Assembly (NCBI GenBank): GCA_024644405.1
Contig: JAHELC010000039.1
Coordinates: 62,001-126,000, forward strand
Source of the DNA: Nitrospinaceae bacterium
GTDB taxonomy: Bacteria > Nitrospinota > Nitrospinia > Nitrospinales > Nitrospinaceae
Direction of reading: 5' to 3'
Length of the DNA: 64,000 bases
Shown: piece by piece, positions 48,777-60,545 of the stretch
Numbering within the stretch: the first letter of the stretch is position 1
Layout: every line of letters starts with the position of its first letter
Notes under the pieces: model-generated
What the model was told of the DNA's origin: nothing
Databases searched by the model: none
Seen by the model: the letters and a program-made list of their open reading frames with translations, nothing else
Program-made: the position numbers and the translations under genes

Positions 48777-49523
48777 TTAAAACTCCGATTCTTCATCGCC
48801 AGTATCTTTGTTCGGTGTCAGTTCCCCTTTAAAAAAATTCTGCAATGTGGCGTTAGCCGTATTGTTCACCAGGTCCTGTATGTTGCCGCGCGCGAGGACG
48901 GCGCCGTCGACCATCACCAGCGTATCCGTGTTGAAGCGCAGGGCCTGCGGGATGTCATGCGTCACCAGCACCGTCGCGGTGTGCAGACGCGAATGAATAT
49001 CCTTGATGAGGTTTTCGATGGTCAGCGCCGCTGTCGGGTCGAGCGCTGAGGTCGGTTCGTCCAATAATAAAACATCTGGCTTATTGGCCAGCACCTGCGC
49101 GAACGCCACGCGCTGTTGCTCACCGACCGAGAGTGTCTCCACCTGCCGGGCCATGAAGTCGGAATTCAATCCCACCTGCTTCAACAGCTCCTGCACTGCG
49201 TTGTCGCTCACCGTCTCGTGGCGCAGGAAGGGTCCGAGGGCCACGTTCGCCTGTACTGTGTCCGGGATCAATGCCGGCGACTGGAACACCATGCCCATGC
49301 GGCGGCGCAGGTCCAGAATGTCGAGCGACCGCACCTCGGTGCCGTTGAGGAACACCTCACCGGAGTCGGCGGGGTTGAGGCGGTTGAGGCAACGCAGGAG
49401 CGACGACTTGCCCGCGCCGGACGGACCCAGCACGGTCAGCATCTCTCCCGGTTGGACCTCGAACGAGAGATCTTTAAGGATAGGCTTGTCTTTGGTCAAG
49501 GATAGATGGGATACACGCAACAT
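48777..49523 (-). CDS. fetA: ABC exporter ATP-binding protein, FetA-like
   Basis: ATPase subunit of 248 residues. Walker A is G-P-S-G-A-G-K-S-S near residue 36, the signature L-S-V-G-E-Q-Q-R-V-A near 133, Walker B D-V-L-L-L-D-E-P-T-S-A-L-D, and the switch histidine in V-T-H-D. It pairs with the FetB-type permease downstream. The ATG at 49523 fits the usual N-terminus (M-L-R-V-S-H-L); the frame remains open 13 codons further into a palindromic repeat. An acidic C-terminal tail (N-K-D-T-G-D-E-E-S) is unusual but short. Confidence 0.87.
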   Translation of the reverse strand: MLRVSHLSLTKDKPILKDLSFEVQPGEMLTVLGPSGAGKSSLLRCLNRLNPADSGEVFLNGTEVRSLDILDLRRRMGMVFQSPALIPDTVQANVALGPFLRHETVSDNAVQELLKQVGLNSDFMARQVETLSVGEQQRVAFAQVLANKPDVLLLDEPTSALDPTAALTIENLIKDIHSRLHTATVLVTHDIPQALRFNTDTLVMVDGAVLARGNIQDLVNNTANATLQNFFKGELTPNKDTGDEESEF

Positions 49524-49555
49524 GAATTTTCCGCTTTCATAAAAGAAAGGAAGAG

Positions 49556-49641
49556 TTATCAACCACCCCTAATCCCTCCTTTATAGGAGGGGGACTCAAA
49601 CCTCCTGCCCTTCCCAAGGGGAGACTGGGAGGGGTTGATAA
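49556..49641. repeat. 86-bp palindromic element with TTATCAACC ends
   Basis: The left end TTATCAACCACCCCT and right end AGGGGTTGATAA are inverted repeats. Inside lie two further stems (CTCCT/AGGAG and CCCTTCCC/GGGGA types). It encodes nothing and is probably a miniature mobile or REP-like element. Confidence 0.65.
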
Positions 49642-49723
49642 TATTTCCTTTGTTCCCTGAGCCTGTCGAAGGGCGGCAGGTTTTTCCAGCTAATCCTATC
49701 ATCCTGTGATTCGTTCCTCCAGG

Positions 49724-49760
49724 GTGTTGATAGTTATCACCTGATTGGGAGAACCTGTCT
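49724..49760. repeat. Dispersed repeat ending GAACCTGTCT
   Basis: Contains GTTGATAGTTATCACC and TGATTGGGAGAACCTGTCT, matching 40229-40262 with a few differences. Confidence 0.5.
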
Positions 49761-49926
49761 GCCCTTGTTTTCTCTGTGCCTGGCAAGGTCCGGGCGGAGT
49801 ACCTCTCTACCTCGTTTGGCGAAGATAACTATTCCAGCGCCTCCTACGCCTCTGCCAGATTTTCCACCGGCGGCTCGCCGGCGCTTTATCAAGCGCTTCA
49901 TAAATCCAATAAAAATTAGAGGACGT

Positions 49927-50952
49927 TCAGGAAGAGGTTTTTTCGGTGAATTCGAACATGCGTTCGACACAACGGAGCGCATTCTGCCGGACTTCTGGGG
50001 ATAGCTCAACGATCTGGTCCGGACGCGGATGCTCCAATGCCTGTAAAACATCCTGCAGGGAATTGGACTTCATGTATTTGCACAGGGTGCAGGAACCCAC
50101 GAACCGTTTTTCGGGAAACTCGGATTGCAAAATACCGGTCAACCCGCATTCGGTGAGCAGGAAAAACGTATCGCCACTGGATTCACGAACATGATTGAGC
50201 ATGTTGGTGGTGCTTCCCACGTAATCCGCTTTCCGGACCACTGCGGGTTGGCATTCCGGATGTGCCAGCACATCGACTCCCGGGTTGTTGTTCCGGACAA
50301 CATCGATCGCCTCCGGCGCGTATTCCTCGTGAACGTAACAGGTGCCGTCGTACCAGGAAATATCTTTTTCAACTCCCTTTGCCTGCAAATGATCGACCAC
50401 ATTCTTCGCCATCAACTTGTCGGGCAGAAAATAGATGTGGTCATTATCGATGGCTTCCATAATATGATACACGTTGGAGGAGGTCACGCACACGTCGCAT
50501 AGCGCCTTCACTTCAGCGGTGGTGTTGATATAACAGACAAAGGTATGATCGGGAAATTCCTTCCGCAGGCGCCGGACGTCGGCGGCGGTAATGCCGTCCG
50601 CCAGGGAACAACCACCGTCAGGATTGGGATCGAGGACCGTTTTATCCGGATTTAAAATTTTCGCGGTCTCCGCCATGAACCGCACGGCGGGAAAAACGAT
50701 CACATCCGCATCCGAATCGCGGGCGATTTTGGCCAGGCCGTAGGAATCGCCGGAATGGTCAGCGACACCATACAGGATTTCCGGCGCGACATAATTGTGC
50801 GCCAGTATGATGGCGTTCTTTTCCCACTTGAGCTCTTCGATGCGGGAGATCACAGGGTGAATTCGCTGGCAATGCTCGAGCGTGAACTCGCACAGTGGAC
50901 TGCCGACCTTGATCGGCTTCAGTTTTTCATACAACTGTTCGACTGTGATCAT
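49927..50952 (-). CDS. nadA: Quinolinate synthase A
   Basis: [4Fe-4S] enzyme of 341 residues that condenses iminoaspartate with dihydroxyacetone phosphate for NAD synthesis. I-L-A-H-N-Y-V-A-P-E-I and D-S-Y-G-L-A are typical active-site segments. Cluster ligands are recognisable in D-G-G-C-S-L-A-D-G, T-E-C-G-L-T-G and G-S-C-T-L-C-K-Y-M-K. T-F-V-C-Y-I-N-T-T-A-E-V-K is the substrate-binding region. nadB and nadC are not nearby. It is followed upstream on the same strand by a HIT gene at only 4 bp distance. Confidence 0.95.
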   Translation of the reverse strand: MITVEQLYEKLKPIKVGSPLCEFTLEHCQRIHPVISRIEELKWEKNAIILAHNYVAPEILYGVADHSGDSYGLAKIARDSDADVIVFPAVRFMAETAKILNPDKTVLDPNPDGGCSLADGITAADVRRLRKEFPDHTFVCYINTTAEVKALCDVCVTSSNVYHIMEAIDNDHIYFLPDKLMAKNVVDHLQAKGVEKDISWYDGTCYVHEEYAPEAIDVVRNNNPGVDVLAHPECQPAVVRKADYVGSTTNMLNHVRESSGDTFFLLTECGLTGILQSEFPEKRFVGSCTLCKYMKSNSLQDVLQALEHPRPDQIVELSPEVRQNALRCVERMFEFTEKTSS

Positions 50953-50956
50953 AGGT

Positions 50957-51298
50957 TCAACCGGGAGGCCACTTCATGGGCCTGCCGCCCAACAAATGAA
51001 AATGAATATGAAACACCGACTGTCCGGCGCCCGATCCGCAATTCAGAACCAAACGGAAACCCGATACTTCCAGATCGTTTTCCTGGGCCAGAGATTTCGC
51101 CAGGGTAAACACCGATCCCATCAGCTCCTTGTCCGAAACCTCAATATTCATGAGGGTGCTAATGTGTTTTTTGGGAATGATCAACAGATGCGTTGGGGCT
51201 TGCGGATTGATGTCCTTGATGGCCATCAATTGCTCATCACTGTAGATCATTTCAGCATCGATTTCCCCACCGGCAATTTTACAAAACAGACAATTGTC
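50957..51298 (-). CDS. HIT family purine nucleotide phosphoramidase (HinT-like)
   Basis: A 113-residue histidine-triad protein. C-L-F-C-K-I-A-G-G-E-I at the start and the H-I-H-F-H-L-L-G-G triad near the end identify the HinT branch, which hydrolyses AMP-lysine and adenosine phosphoramidates. The TTG at 51298 is preceded by GGAGAGG with good spacing; a TTG seven codons earlier is possible but less well placed. It lies 4 bp upstream of nadA, so the two probably share a transcript. Confidence 0.9.
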   Translation of the reverse strand, partial: DNCLFCKIAGGEIDAEMIYSDEQLMAIKDINPQAPTHLLIIPKKHISTLMNIEVSDKELMGSVFTLAKSLAQENDLEVSGFRLVLNCGSGAGQSVFHIHFHLLGGRPMKWPPG

Positions 51299-51461
51299 CA
51301 AAACAACCTCTCCCTGCAATATGAGTTAAAAATAGCTCCCGTTGGCTTTAATATACTCCAGCCTCACAACGAAGCCAACCCAAAATCCACTGCGTGAATC
51401 AATGCCCTGCGAGACAAATTATTGCTGTGCAGCAAGGGTAAAATCAATCCGATAGTTGTTT

Positions 51462-52919
51462 TCAGCCGAAATAATTTTTACCGTCGAAGGGATCCTGCAA
51501 GTCCATACTGCGCAGGTAATCTTGAATTTCTTTTTTGTAGGAGACAAAGGGATCCAACATGAGGAAGGGTTCTTCTTTATTCAGTCGGAACCCAATCCAG
51601 TCGATCAGGTAACCGGTTTGGCATTCCAACAACGTTTTCACCAATTCGCCGCGTCCGTCGGCGCGGGTACCCTTGGGTGCGTTGGACTGAGAAAACAGGA
51701 TGGCTTCATCGGAAGTTTTGCGATGGGCGTCTCCATTCTCTTCCAGTCCCCAATAGAGACCATGCGATTTATTGAGGTTATGAAACTCCAGGTCGAGACT
51801 TTTAATCCAGGGATCCTGCCATCCCACATTTTCCGATTTCATGAATTCGGTGAGCATCCAGTATTTGCTGGCCCAGTCCACCCGCCCGATGAGTGCTTCC
51901 GGACCTTTGGGCATATCGGTTAGCACGGATTCCCAGGCTTCCAACACCCAATCGGTGTCACTGGAAGATCCCGCCAGATATTTTTTACCGGCCTGCATCA
52001 TTTCCCACTGCACCTCGAGAGCCGTGGTCTGGTTGCCGTCCCGTAAAGTGATTGCCCATTTGAACTCCGGGTCGCGGGAAATATCCCGCATGGCATTCAC
52101 GGAATCAGAGAGAATCCAGGCCGGGTCGGCCACGCCCAACTCGATCAACTCCATCATCAGGGACGTGCTGCCCATCTTGAGGGCGCAGGCGAATTCGCTC
52201 ATGTTGGAGTCGCCGACCAGCAAATGAATGCGCCGGTACTTGCTGGGATCGGACAACGGTTCGTCGCGGGTGTTGACGATGGCGCGATTGTATTGCACCC
52301 ACCGGTAAAATTCGTTGGGAATGTGATCCGCGCGCTGGGAAATCTGAAAATTGACTTCTTCGGTGTCTTTCCGCGTCTGATGAATATCATCCCAATCGCG
52401 GAACGGTTGCGGGTTGCAGGCTCCGGTCCGTCCGGTGCCGGCATAAATCTGCCGGGTCACCAGAAACGACGCCAGCAGACGCAGGTTTTCGCGGTTATCG
52501 AACTGGAACGCGCGGCTGACCAGATAATTCTCATGGCACCCGAAGGTGGCGTTGGTTTCGAGATCCACATTGTTCTTGATGAACGCCACCTGGTCCGCCC
52601 AACCCAATTCCTCCAGCGCTTTTTGCACAATCTCGTCGCCGGCGCGGTCGAACGTGACCAGATCCACCAGGTTGGAGCATTCGGGCGAAGCGTATTCGAG
52701 ATGGCCCATGTCCAGGTAAATACGGCCGCCGTTGGCGAGGAACCCGCCGTTGCCGGGCGGTTCGTCGTTGGCTCGGTAATGCAAGTCGAGCACACCCTGC
52801 TTCTGATCGAAAATATGATTCTTGATGCGAACCGCAACATCGATCGGCCCGTATTTGAAATCATCCTCTTTGATCAGGAGGCCGTACTCCGTTTCAATGC
52901 CGAATATTCTGCGTTTCAT
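51462..52919 (-). CDS. pafA: UBact/Pup ligase (PafA type)
   Basis: Ligase of 485 residues that joins the C-terminal glutamate of the tag protein to substrate lysines using ATP. It shows the carboxylate-amine-ligase start I-F-G-I-E-T-E-Y-G, a catalytic-type aspartate D70 in G-R-I-Y-L-D-M-G-H-L-E-Y-A-S-P-E, I-K-N-N-V-D, H-E-N-Y-L-V-S-R and N-T-R-D-E-P. I assign it to PafA rather than Dop because it lacks the long insertion before the N-G-x-R-x-Y-x-D motif and has E-Y-A-S-P-E-C in the PafA style. It is the last gene of the proteasome operon, 2 bp after prcA. Confidence 0.9.
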   Translation of the reverse strand: MKRRIFGIETEYGLLIKEDDFKYGPIDVAVRIKNHIFDQKQGVLDLHYRANDEPPGNGGFLANGGRIYLDMGHLEYASPECSNLVDLVTFDRAGDEIVQKALEELGWADQVAFIKNNVDLETNATFGCHENYLVSRAFQFDNRENLRLLASFLVTRQIYAGTGRTGACNPQPFRDWDDIHQTRKDTEEVNFQISQRADHIPNEFYRWVQYNRAIVNTRDEPLSDPSKYRRIHLLVGDSNMSEFACALKMGSTSLMMELIELGVADPAWILSDSVNAMRDISRDPEFKWAITLRDGNQTTALEVQWEMMQAGKKYLAGSSSDTDWVLEAWESVLTDMPKGPEALIGRVDWASKYWMLTEFMKSENVGWQDPWIKSLDLEFHNLNKSHGLYWGLEENGDAHRKTSDEAILFSQSNAPKGTRADGRGELVKTLLECQTGYLIDWIGFRLNKEEPFLMLDPFVSYKKEIQDYLRSMDLQDPFDGKNYFG

Positions 52920-52921
52920 AT

Positions 52922-53668
52922 TTATTTCGCCGCCGATTTTAAAGGTTCGATTTCATCCGGAGCCAACACCCGGTACAGGGCTTTACGATCCGTTTCGGTG
53001 GAGAGCACCGCCGCTTCCAGCGTCCACCGGTCGAACGCCTCGGCCAAGGTCATCGGTTGTTCCTCGGCGTCGCCGGATTCGGGCGCACCTTGTTTCTTGC
53101 CCTCTTCCCACAGGCGGCACGCTTCTTTCAACGCCTGTTTAAGTGAAAGCGAGGCAAAGTCGGTCTGCTCGATTTGTTTTTGAATCCACTCCGTTTCCTT
53201 GTCATTCCCGGAGATCACCGCGCCCTTTTTGAACATTTCCCAGTGCCCGTCGTAATTGAGCCGGAAGAACAACGGCCGGTTGTCAAAATCGATTTCAGCG
53301 AACAGCAGTTTGACCAGATACGGCGCCCGCATCACTTCTTCGAAATTCTGTTTCATGGCGGGAGCGATACCGAACTGGAGGAGCCGGGCAATGGTCACAT
53401 CTTTGTCCGACCGGTTGAATCCTTCCACGTGCGCCATGTCCAACAGAGTCATGCGCAAACGCTCGACGTCGGCGGGATGCCCGAGACTGCCCAGCGCGAT
53501 GCGGTCGTACACTTCAAAAATTTTCCCGGGCTGGGCGGTGAATCCCATCAACAGCGAGCCGCCCTGGTAGGGCACGGCAAGCACCGGCTGGCCTTTTTTC
53601 AGTTTCTCCTGGACGTAACTGTGGCGGGTGGAAATGGCCTCCATCCAGCGAAACGGTTCATCAAACAT
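52922..53668 (-). CDS. prcA: Proteasome subunit alpha
   Basis: Structural alpha-ring subunit of the bacterial 20S proteasome, 248 residues. The N-terminal gate helix (P-F-R-W-M-E-A-I-S-T-R-H-S-Y-V) is followed by G-G-S-L-L-M-G-F and E-V-Y-D-R-I-A-L-G-S-L-G-H, where the alpha fold normally has Y-D-R-V. No catalytic threonine is present, as expected. The C-terminal 60 residues are charged and helical. It starts 2 bp after prcB and ends 2 bp before pafA. Confidence 0.92.
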   Translation of the reverse strand: MFDEPFRWMEAISTRHSYVQEKLKKGQPVLAVPYQGGSLLMGFTAQPGKIFEVYDRIALGSLGHPADVERLRMTLLDMAHVEGFNRSDKDVTIARLLQFGIAPAMKQNFEEVMRAPYLVKLLFAEIDFDNRPLFFRLNYDGHWEMFKKGAVISGNDKETEWIQKQIEQTDFASLSLKQALKEACRLWEEGKKQGAPESGDAEEQPMTLAEAFDRWTLEAAVLSTETDRKALYRVLAPDEIEPLKSAAK

Positions 53669-53670
53669 GG

Positions 53671-54471
53671 TTATTTCCTTTTAGTGGATTCCTGAAACAG
53701 TGCCGCCAGTTCTTCTTCCGGCATGAACTGGTAACCTTCCCCGGTGATGCTGGCGATAACCGGATAAATTTTGTCTTCGGGACGGGCCTGCCCGGTAGCG
53801 CTGTCGAACTGCCCGGCTGTCTGCAACAGCCGTATGGCCAGTTTGGCGGCTTGCTTCAAATCCCTTTGCGCCAGTTTTTTGTCTCCCCAGAGATCTTCGT
53901 ACTCGAGGATACCGCGAATCACCGGCGACCCGGAACCGGTGGCGGTGTGGGTCTGGATTTCAAACTGCGCTCCCAGAATATCGTAAAAATAAAGATAGGG
54001 TTTGCCTTCTTTTTTGTCGAAAGAAGCAAAGATGGGGCTGACTGCGCCGACCCCCTGCATGGCCAGTCCCATGTTGTCCTTCAACAATTTGGACAGGGCG
54101 CGGATTTTGCCTTCGGTGCTCAGGGGTTGCAGTTGCGACCGGCGGTAATATTCGAAGTTGTGCGAAAGGATGCGGGCCATTTCGAACGCCGTGGCGGGTA
54201 CTCCGGCGATGGCCATCAGGGAAAAGTCGTCGATGGGAATCACCTTGTCGCACCGCTCGTACATGATGGAATTGCCAGCGGTAGCACGGCGGTCTCCGGC
54301 TACAATCAGGCCGTCCTTGAAATGAAAAGCCAGCACGGTGGTGCCCTGGGGCAGGCTGGCTTTGTCGATGGCGGTCAAACCGGCAATCGCTTTGGGCCAG
54401 GAATATCCCGACCGCTCCAGAAGATCGATAAAATCTCCCGGGCCATTAAAGTTCTCCGGTTTATCGCTCAT
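53671..54471 (-). CDS. prcB: Proteasome subunit beta (catalytic)
   Basis: Catalytic beta subunit of 266 residues. A 43-residue propeptide ends at Q-G, before the nucleophile T44 (T-T-V-L-A-F). D60 (V-A-G-D-R-R-A-T) and K76 (C-D-K-V-I) lie 16 and 32 residues after it, the classic D17/K33 positions, so the protein should be active after self-cleavage. G-A-V-S-P-I-F-A-S and H-T-A-T-G-S-G-S belong to the beta fold. Its ATG overlaps the UBact stop by 4 bp, coupling tag and protease synthesis. Confidence 0.94.
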   Translation of the reverse strand: MSDKPENFNGPGDFIDLLERSGYSWPKAIAGLTAIDKASLPQGTTVLAFHFKDGLIVAGDRRATAGNSIMYERCDKVIPIDDFSLMAIAGVPATAFEMARILSHNFEYYRRSQLQPLSTEGKIRALSKLLKDNMGLAMQGVGAVSPIFASFDKKEGKPYLYFYDILGAQFEIQTHTATGSGSPVIRGILEYEDLWGDKKLAQRDLKQAAKLAIRLLQTAGQFDSATGQARPEDKIYPVIASITGEGYQFMPEEELAALFQESTKRK

Positions 54472-54644
54472 TGACCCGTTCGCTGTTTGTATTTTTCAGA
54501 TTGCTTGGGGTCGACTTTTTTCATTCGCTTGAGGAGATCATCGCGTCCCGGCCGATTCACATCGGGTTTGGAAGGACCACTGTCCTTCCGGTCCGGCGTG
54601 GACTCTTTCTTCTCTTCCCGTCGCAGGGGATCATTCATTTCCAT
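54468..54644 (-). CDS. ubact: UBact, prokaryotic ubiquitin-like protein
   Basis: A 58-residue, strongly charged, presumably disordered tag protein. It ends K-Y-K-Q-R-T-G-Q, and its central part G-P-S-K-P-D-V-N-R-P followed by L-L-K-R-M-K-K-V-D-P fits the UBact family described from Gram-negative phyla including Nitrospinae. Actinobacterial Pup ends G-G-Q or G-G-E instead. The terminal Gln would have to be deamidated by Dop before PafA can use it. The first ATG (54644) has AAGGAG 8 bases upstream; an internal ATG (54638) forms an ATGA overlap with the dop stop. The stop overlaps prcB by 4 bp. Lysines and glutamates dominate; there is no Cys or Trp. Confidence 0.92.
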   Translation of the reverse strand: MEMNDPLRREEKKESTPDRKDSGPSKPDVNRPGRDDLLKRMKKVDPKQSEKYKQRTGQ

Positions 54645-56125
54645 GCAAACTGCTCCTTGTTTGAATCCAGGACCTGAAGGACATCTTCCTTGGTGATGAG
54701 TCCGGACAGATCCAAATACTCACCATTGTTGAATTCGATTCCCGTCCAATGGATGTTTTTAATATGGTCACGCTCCTGATCGACCGCCTGCCCGCGAATT
54801 CGCGCCCGTGTATCCTGCGGGGCCCGGTGAACAGCGTCGTCAACTTTGCTTTGCTCGATCAACCCGATAACACTTCCCTGGTCGCGCAGTCCGTAATAAA
54901 GACCGCGTTGCGGGTTAAGGTTATGATACTCCAAATCGAGACTTTGTAAAATCGGGTCTTCCCAGTGCAGGCCTTCCGCTGCCATAAAATCGCTGAAAAG
55001 GCTTTGCTTGATCGCCCAGTCGATACGATCGGCCAGGTTTTCCGGGTGATGCTTCAGGTCGTCCAACGTCCGGCCCCACTCCCGGGTGACCCAGTTCCAT
55101 TCTTCCTTATCGCCGGCAAGACCGGTTTGCTTGAGCGCCTGTTCCAGATACCATTCCTGAATTTCCAGCGGCGTAACCGTTTTCCCCGATTGCAGTTTCA
55201 GGAGCACCGTGCCGGTGGTATCCCGCGACACGCGCTGAACATCCTTCACCGGGTCGGTCAGCTCGAACGGCGCGTCCAGTTTCTGGGCACCAATCAAGGT
55301 TAACACCAGCCGGGTGGTCCCGACTTTCAACGCTGTTGCGTAAGCCGACATATTGGCGTCGCCCAATATCAAATGCAGACGCCGGTAATCCTGTGTAGCG
55401 TGCGGCTCATCGCGCGTGTTGATGATGGGCCGCTGGGTCATGGTCTCGATACTGAGCACACTGTCGATAAAATCGGAGCGTTGCGCCAGTTGCAACCCCG
55501 AAAACCCGTCTTCGTTTTTGCGTTCCGCGCCGACTTTCCCCGCCCCGGCATACAACTGACGCGTCACCAGAAACGGCACCAGATGCCGGACCCAGACATC
55601 GAACGGCAGTTTTCGCGGAATCAGATAATTGTCATGCGTGCCGTAACTGTGCCCGCTATAGTCGGTATTGTTTTTAAACAACTGAAGAACGTCGCCGCCC
55701 AGATCCAGATTGCGGAGCCGGACACATTCGCCGACGATTTGTTCTCCGGCCAAATCGTGCGCCACCAGATCGAACACGGTGCGGCATTCCGGCGTGCTGT
55801 ATTCCGGATGCGTATGATCATTGTAAAAACGCGCGCCGTTGGTCAGCACCCGGTCGCTTTTCATTTCCCAGTACGAATAAGGCCGTTTGCGGTCCTCTTC
55901 GCAGAATTCGTCTTCCTCTTCATCCTGCGCCAGGCGTGACACCTGAAACCCGCGCATATCGAGATGCGTGCGCTCGCGGTTATACGCCCAGGCCTTGAAA
56001 ACGCTTTTCGTTTCACAACGGGCCAGCAGGCGCATCGACTCTTCGACCGGGTCGGATTCTTCCTGGTCCTCGCGAACGATGCCGTATTCCGTTTCGATCC
56101 CCAGCAGAGGGACAATTTCGCTCAT
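54635..56125 (-). CDS. dop: Depupylase/deamidase Dop
   Basis: A 496-residue homologue of PafA that deamidates the tag C-terminus and can remove tags from substrates. L-G-I-E-T-E-Y-G-I starts the fold. The segment D-M-R-G-F-Q-V-S-R-L, the acidic insertion after it (Dop-loop region, about 65-90), and L-T-N-G-A-R-F-Y-N-D-H-T-H-P-E-Y-S-T-P-E with the nucleophile-type aspartate D103 are Dop features that the other copy lacks. K-N-N-T-D-Y-S-G-H-S-Y-G and N-T-R-D-E-P-H follow. It overlaps the ARC stop by 4 bp and overlaps the UBact gene at its own end. Confidence 0.9.
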   Translation of the reverse strand: MSEIVPLLGIETEYGIVREDQEESDPVEESMRLLARCETKSVFKAWAYNRERTHLDMRGFQVSRLAQDEEEDEFCEEDRKRPYSYWEMKSDRVLTNGARFYNDHTHPEYSTPECRTVFDLVAHDLAGEQIVGECVRLRNLDLGGDVLQLFKNNTDYSGHSYGTHDNYLIPRKLPFDVWVRHLVPFLVTRQLYAGAGKVGAERKNEDGFSGLQLAQRSDFIDSVLSIETMTQRPIINTRDEPHATQDYRRLHLILGDANMSAYATALKVGTTRLVLTLIGAQKLDAPFELTDPVKDVQRVSRDTTGTVLLKLQSGKTVTPLEIQEWYLEQALKQTGLAGDKEEWNWVTREWGRTLDDLKHHPENLADRIDWAIKQSLFSDFMAAEGLHWEDPILQSLDLEYHNLNPQRGLYYGLRDQGSVIGLIEQSKVDDAVHRAPQDTRARIRGQAVDQERDHIKNIHWTGIEFNNGEYLDLSGLITKEDVLQVLDSNKEQFAWK

Positions 56126-57744
56126 ATGATCGACCGGCTGAGGGTATCGGATGCAGCCTGATCGGAATCGTTGGGCCGCCGTACCCGCGCCACGTTCTTC
56201 GGATCAAAGTCGAGCAGCTGGAGCCAGTCTTCCATATTGGAGTCGGCCGGCAAAACACTGTTCTCGTTGAACTCGTTTTCAAGGGCCTGCGTCAGGTCGT
56301 CTTTTCTGATTTTCAACTCTTCTCCGGCAATGGCCCTCTCGATGGCGCGCTCCTTGGCGCGCAGGACGATGCCCTCCAGAATGGCGCCGGAGACAAAATC
56401 TTTCCAATAGAGTTTCTTGAACTCGCCGCTTTTGAGGGTCAGAACCAGCGCTTCCTGTTCCACAGATTTTTTGAATAAATGATCGAGGAACGGGTGGATC
56501 AGGTCTTTCATCCGGTCGCCATCGATCGGCAGTTCCGGCTTGAGGTACACCTGCAAAATGTCTTCGCAATCCTTCCGGCTGGGCCGTCCCACTTTAATTT
56601 TGCGGTCGATGCGTCCCGGTCGCAATATTGCGGGGTCGATCAGATCGGGCCGGTTGGTCGCCAGGATCACTACCATTTCGCGCACCGACTGAATACCGTC
56701 CATCTCCGCGCAGAACATCGGAACCAGCGTATTGGAAATGTTGTTGACCCGCATGGCCTGCCGGGTGCCCAGTACCGATTCAGCTTCATCGATGAAGATG
56801 AACGGAAGCTTGCCTTTTTCTTTATACTCGCGCGCCCGTTTGAAGATTTCGCGGACCTTGCGTTCCGATTCGCCCAGCCACATGTTTAATATTTCCGGTC
56901 CCTTGACATGGATGAACCGGCCTTCCAGGTCCTTACTGCCTTCATCCTTGGATTTGAGCTGGTCCACCACGTCGGACAGGATCGCTTTGCCGATCAGTGT
57001 TTTACCGCAACCGGGCGGGCCGTAAAACAGGAATCCCTTGGGCATACGGTATTCCATCTTACTGAGAATCTCTTCGTGCAGAATCGGGTACTCAATGACC
57101 TTGCGGACTTCTTCGATGACTTTATCCTGCCCTCCAACCTGCTGCCAGGTAACGGGAACGTAATCGTCCTCCACCAGCGACTTGGACTGGCGTTTGGGGA
57201 GGCGCTTCATGATGACTTTCTGTGTGGGATCGAGAACTACCTCATCCCCTTCCTTGAAGGTTTCCTGTTCCAACTCGGTGCAGGGTATCACCATGGATTC
57301 GGAAGTGTTGGCGCCGCCCCCGACCAGCCAATGCCCGTCGTCCAGACGGGACACGATACGGGAGATCGGGCCTCTTTCGGGCCGGGGAAGTTTGGCGATG
57401 GCGACAAATCCTTCGTTAACCGCAACCTGGTCACCGACCTGCAGTTCTCCGTCTTCAAGAATCTCGGGAGAGACCGCCGCCTGGTATTCGGTGCCGCCGA
57501 CATTCAGGCGGTACAAATCATCTTGCCCCTTGCCGAGAATGGTCCCGATACGATGCGCCGGCAGTTTGAGCTGGCGAATGGTTTCTTCCAGCGTTTTGAT
57601 TTTGAGATTATACTGTTGAGCCGACTGCTGGGCCTGCAGAAGAGCATCGCGCAGATCGAATATTTTTTCCTGAAGGTCAGGCCTGTCCGCCGTTTCCTCC
57701 AGCATTTGATCGATCAATTCTATAATATGGGTGGGGTCTCCCAT
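56122..57744 (-). CDS. arc: Proteasome-associated AAA ATPase ARC/Mpa
   Basis: Hexameric unfoldase of 540 residues that recognises tagged proteins through an N-terminal coiled coil (about 10-60) and threads them into the proteasome. Two OB-type domains (about 65-185) precede the AAA module with Walker A G-P-P-G-C-G-K-T (242-249), Walker B F-I-F-I-D-E-A-E (315-322) and sensor A-T-N-R-P-D-L-I-D. The C-terminus ends T-L-S-R-S-I-I; the G-Q-Y-L tail that docks Mycobacterium Mpa on the proteasome is absent. It is the first gene of the operon, with an AAGG Shine-Dalgarno and a promoter about 30 bp upstream. Confidence 0.93.
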   Translation of the reverse strand: MGDPTHIIELIDQMLEETADRPDLQEKIFDLRDALLQAQQSAQQYNLKIKTLEETIRQLKLPAHRIGTILGKGQDDLYRLNVGGTEYQAAVSPEILEDGELQVGDQVAVNEGFVAIAKLPRPERGPISRIVSRLDDGHWLVGGGANTSESMVIPCTELEQETFKEGDEVVLDPTQKVIMKRLPKRQSKSLVEDDYVPVTWQQVGGQDKVIEEVRKVIEYPILHEEILSKMEYRMPKGFLFYGPPGCGKTLIGKAILSDVVDQLKSKDEGSKDLEGRFIHVKGPEILNMWLGESERKVREIFKRAREYKEKGKLPFIFIDEAESVLGTRQAMRVNNISNTLVPMFCAEMDGIQSVREMVVILATNRPDLIDPAILRPGRIDRKIKVGRPSRKDCEDILQVYLKPELPIDGDRMKDLIHPFLDHLFKKSVEQEALVLTLKSGEFKKLYWKDFVSGAILEGIVLRAKERAIERAIAGEELKIRKDDLTQALENEFNENSVLPADSNMEDWLQLLDFDPKNVARVRRPNDSDQAASDTLSRSII

Positions 57745-57772
57745 GGGGCACCTTATTGAAGGGTATTTATCA

Positions 57773-57802
57773 ATTGTATGAATAATAAACTCAATAAATC
57801 AA
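57773..57802 (-). promoter_or_regulatory. Predicted promoter of the proteasome operon
   Basis: On the minus strand TTGATT and TACAAT are 18 bp apart, with five of six matches at the -10 box. The -10 lies about 30 bp before the ARC start codon. Confidence 0.45.
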
Positions 57803-57881
57803 GTCATTTCGCAGGGTTGGGAGGTCGGTGGACGGGCCGAAACACATGCATTTAAAAGCTTTTCGAAAGAAAGTTCCCTGG

Positions 57882-57905
57882 GGCCACCAAGACCCCCCGG
57901 TGGCC
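57882..57905. repeat. GGCCACC...GGTGGCC inverted repeat upstream of the ARC promoter
   Basis: A perfect 7-bp inverted repeat with a 10-base spacer (AAGACCCCCC). Because it lies between two divergent genes and has no T run, it may be an operator or a structured leader element. Confidence 0.4.
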
Positions 57906-58055
57906 ACCCAAGTAACCCCTTGATTTCAAACAAAAATTTATGGCATTAGGATTAGTTTTTTAATTACAATAACTTAAAAGGTTCCATTTTTATCAGGGAG
58001 AACTCTCGGCGGGTCTCGCTCAAGGGACACACTTGCGGGCCCACCGAAACAAGCC

Positions 58056-59357
58056 ATGTTCCGAATCAACAACAAACCCATCATCGACAAATGCATCGTC
58101 AGCTTCAGCCACAACTGTTTTGAAAGCCGCAGCCTGGCGGACAAATTCGCCCTGGAAAAAGCGCGGCGGGAAATTGCTCAGAAGAAAAAGGGCGTGAGCC
58201 ACCTGATCCTGCGGGCTGAGGGGGAAGAAATCGACCGGCTGAAATTTCTGTTTCTGGTCCGGGGAATCCCCATCATGTGTTACGCCCTCGGCAATCTGCT
58301 GATGTCGAGTTTGAAAGAAATCGTGGTGGTGGGTTCGACCGAGGTGAAGATCATTCTGGAACATTTTCTGGATGTGATCGACACCCGCGGCAAGCAGGTG
58401 ACGTTTGTCCATGAAGACCCGGACAACCTGATGCTGATCAACACCATGATTCTCGGGCGCAACCAACTCTCCCTCGCCGCCAATGAACTGGTATTGTTCC
58501 AACCGGGTGATCTGCCTTTCATGTACGACATTGAAGCCGTCCTGCGGGATAAAGACCTCAAACACCACAATCTGATTCTCTGGCTGAATTCCCGCCAGGC
58601 CATGTTCCCGCAATTCAAGGAAAACCCTGAAAGCGAATTCGTGGTGCGCAACTACCATTACCGGGTCATTGCCGAAAAAGCCAGGCAGTTGCACGATGTC
58701 AAGGAACCCAACGTCTACCCCATCAATCTGTCGGCCATTGAAGAAGATATTATCGAGCTCCTGCACCAAACCCGCAAGGACGGGAAAATCCTCAATGCGG
58801 GACTGAGCAAGGCGTTCCGGTCTCCGGCCCGAATGCTGATGCTGTTGCCGGTTCTGGCGAAACACTACCGGCACTTCGATTCCGATATGAAGAAATTCCG
58901 TCTGGACGATGATTTCAAGTTCGGGGCGCACCTCAAGAATTTCAACCAGGGGGCCTCGATTCTTCTGGACACCCCGTTCCTCGCCAAGTTCAACGACGAC
59001 CCGGCATTCGTTTCGGATGTGGATGCGCTGGAGGATTGGGAGGATTTCGAATCATTGGTGCATACTGCGGAGGAGCGGCACGGCGGAAACGGACTCGCGG
59101 CCATCCACCCCTTCGGCAAAGAATTGTTGAGGTTCAAGGAGCAGACCATGCCCAGGCTGAAAAAACTCATCCCGATGTACGCCGATTTTGAGGGTTACCT
59201 CAACCGGATGTATCGTTCGATGGAAATGCAGTATGTGCCCTTCGATGAAACGGGGCGCTACGACACCCCCAACCTGCACACCCCGCAGATTGAAACGGCG
59301 TACCACTGGTACGCCGACAAAACCCGCCAGCGTGCCGCTGGATCCAGTGTGGCCTAG
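58056..59357 (+). CDS. Unknown protein with a nucleotidyltransferase-like (GT-A) core
   Basis: A 433-residue cytoplasmic protein. The part G-I-P-I-M-C-Y-A-L, L-K-E-I-V-V-V-G-S (about residues 86-94) and L-F-Q-P-G-D-L-P-F-M-Y-D (about 146-157) has the order of MobA/IspD-type NTP transferases, including a D-x-P-F metal-site-like motif. However, the usual N-terminal L-A-A-G-x-G-x-R-M loop is missing. The C-terminal 200 residues are helical and charged, with no recognised domain. The gene is divergent from the proteasome operon and ends with a repeat-type hairpin. Function unknown. Confidence 0.68.
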   Translation: MFRINNKPIIDKCIVSFSHNCFESRSLADKFALEKARREIAQKKKGVSHLILRAEGEEIDRLKFLFLVRGIPIMCYALGNLLMSSLKEIVVVGSTEVKIILEHFLDVIDTRGKQVTFVHEDPDNLMLINTMILGRNQLSLAANELVLFQPGDLPFMYDIEAVLRDKDLKHHNLILWLNSRQAMFPQFKENPESEFVVRNYHYRVIAEKARQLHDVKEPNVYPINLSAIEEDIIELLHQTRKDGKILNAGLSKAFRSPARMLMLLPVLAKHYRHFDSDMKKFRLDDDFKFGAHLKNFNQGASILLDTPFLAKFNDDPAFVSDVDALEDWEDFESLVHTAEERHGGNGLAAIHPFGKELLRFKEQTMPRLKKLIPMYADFEGYLNRMYRSMEMQYVPFDETGRYDTPNLHTPQIETAYHWYADKTRQRAAGSSVA

Positions 59358-59381
59358 CCGGCTAAAAGCCGGAGCTAATTT
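59358..59381 (+). terminator. Hairpin after the unknown gene; relative of the post-rpoH hairpin
   Basis: CCGGCT-AAA-AGCCGG starts right after the TAG stop and is followed by AGCTAATTT, the same context as the hairpin behind rpoH. Confidence 0.45.
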
Positions 59382-59612
59382 CGCTGGGGCGTCCGATGAC
59401 AATCCATGATTTATTTTCGCCTCTGACTTTAGTTAAGCCGTCTAATTTCAATTCCTTTCCGAGTTCGGGAACTTGGCGGAGTTTTTAATTGCCACCGGTG
59501 GGAAGGATGCTATACAGTGGAGAGAGGGCAATGCGGCCCTATTTTTTTAGACGTCAGGATGCAGAAGATGAGGGACCCGCATTCGCGGGGCAAGGGTGTT
59601 GAGGGTATGTCG

Positions 59613-60545
59613 ATGGATCGTCTTGAAATTCACGAATCTCCGCGGTTGAAGTGGTTTGTGCTCATTTCTCTGGGGCTGCACATCACGGTCATGGTGGCCC
59701 AGGGGTTGATGCCCGACGAAAAAAGAACCACGAAAAAATTTCCCGCCGTGAAGGTCAAATACCTGCCGCCGGAAGAAAAGGCCCCGCCTCAAAAAGTTCC
59801 GACTTTTGCGGACGTTCCTAAACCGCGCAAGCTTGAAACGCCTGAAAGTTCCGAACTGATTGCCCGTTACGACAGCCGGGCACATTCCAATCGAAGCACC
59901 AACAAGGGCCTGCGTTATCAGAACAAAAAAACGGTGGTCCCCAAAACCAAAAAGTCTGTTTCTAAAAAATCGCAGCCCACTCCCAAAAAGAAAACGGTAT
60001 CGAAACCCACTCCCAAAACAATCAAAAAACCTTTTCGTCCCTATGACAAGGGATTTGCTCTACCCAAAAACAAGGGGGAAGTGGCCAACACCACACCGCC
60101 GAAACAAATTACCGGTGGAACGCTGGCGCTCCTGGATGGGTTCGATCCGGAAAAATACGCCGCCATGAATACGGAATCCGATACCGTCGAAGATGATGAA
60201 GAAGCGATTTCCCTGGGGACGCGGGAATCCAAGTATGCCTCTTATTTTGCGCGTATCAAGCGGCAGATCGAACTGGCATGGAACTACCCGAACGAAGCCC
60301 AGCGCAAGGGAATTACCGGACAACTGACACTCCGTTTTCAGATTTCCAGGGACGGCAACCTGATGAACGTCAGGTTGATCAATGGTTCCGGGTACAACAT
60401 TCTGGATGAGGCGGCGCTCCAGGCAGTTAAATCCGCCGCACCGTACTATCCTTTTCCGGTCACCATCGACCGGGAAACTCTGCCGATTCTAGCCAACTTT
60501 ATCTACAGTCCCAGCCCACGCGCAAAGTATTTCCCGCGCCCTTAA
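59613..60545 (+). CDS. TonB family energy-transducing protein
   Basis: A 310-residue protein with a single N-terminal membrane helix (about residues 11-28, W-F-V-L-I-S-L-G-L-H-I-T-V-M-V) and a long Pro/Lys/Thr-rich periplasmic spacer. A TonB C-terminal domain covers about the last 90 residues (Y-F-A-R-I-K-R-Q-I-E-L-A-W-N-Y-P, then G-I-T-G-Q-L-T-L-R-F, and L-D-E-A-A-L-Q-A-V-K). It should transmit the proton-motive force to outer-membrane receptors. The ATG at 59613 has GAGG 8 bases upstream; in-frame starts at 59607 and 59517 are possible. No exbB or exbD is adjacent. Confidence 0.85.
   Translation: MDRLEIHESPRLKWFVLISLGLHITVMVAQGLMPDEKRTTKKFPAVKVKYLPPEEKAPPQKVPTFADVPKPRKLETPESSELIARYDSRAHSNRSTNKGLRYQNKKTVVPKTKKSVSKKSQPTPKKKTVSKPTPKTIKKPFRPYDKGFALPKNKGEVANTTPPKQITGGTLALLDGFDPEKYAAMNTESDTVEDDEEAISLGTRESKYASYFARIKRQIELAWNYPNEAQRKGITGQLTLRFQISRDGNLMNVRLINGSGYNILDEAALQAVKSAAPYYPFPVTIDRETLPILANFIYSPSPRAKYFPRP

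Follow-up and report, generated by a model that had tools for sequence, protein, structure and literature searches.

A complete UBact-proteasome operon in a Nitrospinota bacterium, with a tyrosine-free ARC tail

The window, by which we mean the whole 64,000-nucleotide stretch of DNA that was analysed, contains six co-directional minus-strand genes, running from 57744 to 51462 in the order ARC-dop-UBact-prcB-prcA-pafA, in a marine Gram-negative bacterium of the phylum Nitrospinota. Very probably, these genes form a complete UBact-proteasome operon that works by Pup-like tagging and degradation. A sequence-only reading had proposed such an operon with this gene order, and all six genes were located as claimed. 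Its interval of 54468-57744, however, holds ARC, dop and UBact only, whereas prcB, prcA and pafA lie at 51462-54471. The features are as follows:

56122-57744, minus strand: ARC/Mpa-type proteasomal AAA+ ATPase, 540 aa
54635-56125, minus strand: Dop, deamidase/depupylase homologue, 496 aa
54653-54658, minus strand: Shine-Dalgarno-like AAGGAG, within the dop reading frame
54468-54644, minus strand: UBact tag, 58 aa, C-terminus R-T-G-Q
53671-54471, minus strand: PrcB, proteasome beta subunit, 266 aa
52922-53668, minus strand: PrcA, divergent proteasome alpha subunit, 248 aa
51462-52919, minus strand: PafA, tag-protein ligase homologue, 485 aa

Operon layout and the UBact tag

The genes had been described as linked by ATGA overlaps or 2-bp gaps. 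This is true of four junctions, namely the 4-bp ATGA overlaps of ARC/dop and UBact/prcB and the 2-bp gaps of prcB/prcA and prcA/pafA, but dop and UBact overlap by 10 bp when the 58-codon start of the tag at 54644 is used. No Rfam family was found in 49000-60000, and a promoter/terminator scan returned 7 promoters against 4.4 +/- 2.3 expected, which is not over chance; a weak promoter-like site at 57802-57773, 5′ of ARC, was discounted. Downstream of pafA and on the same strand (49927-51319), the window encodes a HIT-family protein and nadA, as do most Nitrospinota loci with sufficient flank. Divergent from ARC is a gene for a 433-aa protein (58056-59357, plus strand), which adjoins ARC in 37 Nitrospinota loci. 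Weak similarity to MobA-like NTP-transferases is shared by all 13 members (lowest E 4e-6), with fold matches to the nucleotidyltransferases RmlA and GlmU.

The tag gene is 58 codons long and ends in R-T-G-Q, as can be read directly. A profile search of its product also bore out the assignment to UBact rather than Pup: the tag scores 74.7 bits against NCBIfam NF033388 (cut-off 35) and 74.6 bits against Pfam PF20513 (cut-off 27.8), with a best E-value of 5e-21, and matches no Pup model at E up to 10. Its conserved core is PGRDDLLKRMKKVDPKQSEKYKQRTGQ, and it has both the G-[EQ] C-terminus of the family (RTGQ) and the linkage to Dop, PafA and the proteasome. The Pup profiles PF05639 and TIGR03687 likewise gave no match at E up to 10 with 12 UBact rows, and no match in the whole genome in a search that recovers Corynebacterium glutamicum as positive control; with PF05639, a Pup from Nonomuraea reaches 106 bits. 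Direct profile comparison of UBact with actinobacterial Pup gave a probability of 0.3% and thus no support for kinship. Since kinship is not demonstrable by sequence, a Pup-like binding mode for UBact is an assumption. The structure model of the tag (low confidence) shows disorder over most of the length and a pair of short helices at the C-terminal end, and the matches of the tag among solved structures (SIR3, titin) were set aside as chance.

Two start codons were considered for the tag. The motif AAGGAG lies 8 nt 5′ of the first ATG, a distance that almost all relatives share. Of 57 loci, 54 have a Shine-Dalgarno-like motif ahead of the tag; in two of the three exceptions the script chose an earlier ATG, and the third is at a contig edge. 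If translation began instead at codon 3 (54638), the gene would have 56 codons and an ATGA overlap with dop, but one relative of the same family lacks Met at that codon. For these reasons the 58-codon start is better supported. Over the last 47 codons, comparison with 56 relatives gives 1044 synonymous and 480 non-synonymous codon differences, against approximately 94:309 expected from random single changes, a pattern of strong purifying selection on the tag. Membership of the UBact family leads us to expect covalent attachment to lysines, and the tryptic lysine remnant would then be T-G-E (cut after R55), not G-E.

UBact, with its Gln/Glu C-terminus, has already been named as a family, and published work records it from Gram-negative bacteria. 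The discovery of UBact systems in Gram-negative bacteria is reportedly due to Lehmann et al. in 2017. The phylum Nitrospinota includes marine nitrite oxidisers, and the first organisms in which UBact was recognised included Nitrospina gracilis. The 2017 discovery paper is cited in PMC12751074; PMC7947786 notes Dop and PafA homologues in Nitrospinae, and PMC2588565 Pup-like genes in nitrospirae and verrucomicrobia. In comparison with known UBact systems (NF033388, PF20513), the operon has the same tag sequence, length and R-T-G-[QE] end and the same companions (Dop, PafA, ARC, PrcB and PrcA), and differs in nothing of substance. UBact loci of Nitrospirota (Nitrospira, Nitrospirales) share the six genes and their order, but differ in mostly R-T-G-E endings, NQII or SQIV tails on ARC and wider gene spacing. 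The Pup-proteasome of Actinomycetota (Mycobacterium, Nonomuraea) has homologous Dop, PafA, ARC, PrcB and PrcA, an equal relative order dop-tag-prcB-prcA in Nonomuraea, and a tag that also ends in Gly-Gln/Glu; yet its tag is not alignable with UBact, its ARC ends in GQYL where this one ends in RSII, and the equivalent of its alpha-subunit Arg26 is missing here.

Within the phylum, the tag was found in 58 of 77 genomes: 58 of the 64 in the order of the window's organism, and none of the 13 outside it. Two of the six tag-negative genomes of the order still carry a Pup-ligase gene, so that some absences are assembly gaps. In two others, G026 (90% complete) and G049 (95%), neither UBact nor any Pup-ligase gene was found, which reflects either loss or an assembly gap. 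The same genes are clustered in relatives across Nitrospinota and in Nitrospirota, Armatimonadota and Latescibacterota. Several loci of genera g12 and g16 (L031, L034, L047, L049, L061 and others) have the order ARC-dop-prcA-UBact-prcB-pafA, in which prcA precedes the tag.

Tagging enzymes and proteasome core

The genome of the window contains exactly two genes of the Pup-ligase family. The dop product (Pup_ligase, E=4e-150) scores 416 bits with the Dop model TIGR03688 vs. 366 bits with that of PafA, and 322 bits with the Dop structures 4B0R/5LRT vs. 241 bits with PafA, aligning through the Dop loop, which begins at about residue 46; the catalytic Asp103 is present. The pafA product scores 330 bits with the PafA model TIGR03686 vs. 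305 bits with that of Dop, has the PafA structures 4B0T/4BJR as best matches, and carries the catalytic Asp70 and no Dop loop. In a tree rooted at midpoint only, Dop and PafA of the UBact phyla form separate groups, and in each of them the Nitrospinota stand beside the Nitrospirota. Scores, Dop loop and tree groups all tell the two apart: they are distinct paralogues, and each aligns with solved structures at its catalytic Asp.

The best models of the five non-tag genes give profile E-values from 1e-14 to 1e-150, and none of the five proteins reaches its curated NCBIfam equivalog cut-off. For Dop the score is 416 bits against a cut-off of 492.3, which makes it by sequence a Dop homologue of UBact type outside the curated equivalog, and for PafA it is 330.5 against 551.3. 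That all five fall short suggests that these cut-offs were set on actinobacterial proteins.

PrcB matches TIGR03690 (E=5e-48) and PF00227, and has a propeptide of 43 aa followed by the catalytic Thr44 (Thr1), Asp60 (D17) and Lys76 (K33). PrcA is more divergent: it matches TIGR03691 with E=1.5e-14 (54 bits, cut-off 139) and PF00227 with 27.7 bits (cut-off 22.4), and a profile of alpha subunits from UBact phyla matches Mtb PrcA with E=6e-24. No other prcA or prcB is present in the genome of the window. A third proteasome-family match elsewhere in it is taken to be HslV, in which case PrcAB is probably not the only such chamber.

Genus g16 has a second prcB, located between dop and prcA in genomes G060-G064 and G066. 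It is found at L073:4659-5456 and L078:5260-6033 and partly in L068, L014, L017, L022 and L028, is approximately 52% identical to PrcB of the window, and has a long branch in the tree of PrcB sequences. Thr1, Asp17 and Lys33 are kept in the two complete copies, by which the subunit is apparently active, and a core with two kinds of beta subunit is possible in these loci.

Proposed pathway and the terminal residue of the tag

In the Pup system, Dop converts the terminal Gln of Pup to Glu, PafA couples the tag to lysines, Dop reverses the coupling and ARC feeds PrcAB (PMC3511204, PMC7947786). Modelled on this system, from deamidation, ligation and removal through to capture, degradation and docking, the pathway here would begin with UBact as a short, mostly disordered protein with a Gln end, which Dop would convert to Glu. 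PafA would then use ATP to join the gamma-carboxylate of this Glu to lysines of target proteins, and Dop would also remove the tag. The N-terminal coiled coils of ARC would capture the tag, and ARC would thread the target into the 20S chamber of PrcA and PrcB, where Thr1 of PrcB would cut it.

Alternatively, the tag could serve mainly as a reversible mark that does not lead to degradation, and the proteasome would then act on other substrates. Some actinobacteria do lack a proteasome yet keep Pup, PafA, Dop and ARC (PMC3511204), and a piece of the phage hit MT835496, an unverified and unannotated faecal scaffold that was used as outgroup only, has homologues of ARC, Dop and PafA and, within the piece, no prcA and no significant prcB match. 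However, prcA and prcB share the cluster in nearly all complete UBact loci, and the six genes here overlap or nearly touch. We consider a mainly non-degradative role very improbable, and favour tagging for degradation.

From the terminal Gln and the dop gene, the sequence-only reading had concluded that deamidation is obligatory. By analogy with mycobacteria this is sound, and there are good grounds to infer that Dop deamidates the terminal Gln; but a one-codon change to Glu abolishes the need for it. The tag ends in Gln in 57 of 58 Nitrospinota loci, and the one exception, G009, has RTGE and keeps dop. Elsewhere the ending is labile: 12 of 14 Nitrospirota tags end in Glu (mostly R-T-G-E), with dop retained in most of these genomes, and Armatimonadota tags are divided into 5 with Gln and 5 with Glu. 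Deamidation would thus be required here if PafA demands Glu, and not across the UBact family.

The same data bear on whether Dop is chiefly a tag remover, the terminal Gln being neither regulatory nor obligatory. This would agree with the flips between Gln and Glu in relatives that retain dop, whether between the closely related Armatimonadota operons L136 (RSGQ) and L143 (RSGE) or between G009 and the rest of its order, and with Corynebacterium, where Pup ends in Glu yet dop is retained (PMC3511204). Against it, Gln persists almost throughout the Nitrospinota although a single base change would yield Glu, and we hold this account to be unlikely, deamidation by Dop remaining our preferred reading for the operon. 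L136 and L143 form a natural pair that bears on the need for deamidation, and the natural Q/E variation lets deamidation be probed as a control point.

The ARC tail and the alpha-ring pocket

ARC consists of an N-terminal coiled coil, a double OB domain, an AAA domain, a beta-grasp-like insert and the C-terminal tail RSII. Walker A is at residue 242 and Walker B at 315, and the pore loop W289-L-G (289-291) aligns with FVG of Mpa and fits the pattern Ar-Hb-Gly. The match to TIGR03689 (E=5e-117) is below the curated cut-off, whereas the Pfam OB and AAA domains are above theirs, and ARC aligns with the Mpa structures 5KWA/7PX9 over the OB, AAA and beta-grasp regions.

In mycobacteria, the tails of Mpa and PafE are GQYL; the tyrosine contacts Arg26 (or Glu119) of the alpha subunit, and the carboxylate can pair with Lys52 (PMC9599533, PMC11953334). 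A search for Bpa/PafE found no match in the genome of the window or in the controls, and is given no weight. All 47 complete Nitrospinota ARC tails read RS[IVM][IL], and 18 of 18 in other UBact phyla end in two residues drawn from I/V (NQII, SQIV, SQII, RNVI, GKVI, KGVI, PSVV), so that neither GQYL nor any Tyr occurs in the 65 UBact-type tails; two actinobacterial ARCs used as controls have GQYL.

The pocket differs as well. In PrcA of the window, Lys49 is the equivalent of Mtb Lys52, and Lys25 occupies the place of Arg26. An earlier candidate view that the pocket lysine is lost, with His64 (GH position) as its site, was refuted by the alignment of Lys52 of Mtb PrcA with Lys49. Among 66 alpha subunits, the Lys52 equivalent is Lys in all and the Arg26 equivalent is Arg in none; the latter position holds K/M/L/S/G in Nitrospinota and Q/D/E/G/S elsewhere, whereas the actinobacterial control Nonomuraea has Arg. 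This suggests that a tail of the RSII type still extends to the pocket lysine but makes no tyrosine-arginine contact, both sides of which have been lost, and ARC probably docks on the alpha ring in this way.

More broadly, several Gram-negative phyla may use a tyrosine-free docking code, in which the carboxylate of an aliphatic pair meets the alpha-subunit Lys, Tyr and Arg are absent from the two sides, and Pup and UBact types are mutually incompatible; we judge the chances of this to be even. The docking difference is put forward as a proposal, because the Arg26 column lies in an ungapped but weakly conserved stretch, Lys at this position in 26 of 46 Nitrospinota alpha subunits could partly replace Arg, and the actinobacterial comparison covers, besides the published Mtb ones, a pair of ARC tails and a single alpha subunit.

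A competing possibility is that ARC does not dock on the alpha ring through its RSII tail and is kept in place by its beta-grasp loop or by an unknown adaptor. The Mtb beta-grasp hairpin also touches the alpha ring and is required (PMC9599533), and the tyrosine found in known motifs is missing from the aliphatic tail. The very strong conservation of the tail and the invariance of the carboxylate-pairing lysine speak against this arrangement, which we find doubtful though worth keeping in view; docking through the tail is the reading we prefer. We found no earlier description of the tail and pocket pattern or of the second prcB in one genus, and no mention of an aliphatic ARC tail in Nitrospirota in the literature outside subscription papers.

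Taken as a whole, the operon is a further well-formed example of a known system that is experimentally almost untouched. Its tail and pocket differences provide natural variants for studying the rule by which bacterial proteasomes dock their motor and open their gate. If the proposed docking code is true, Pup- and UBact-type proteasomes would be mismatched at the joint between motor and core as well as at the tag.
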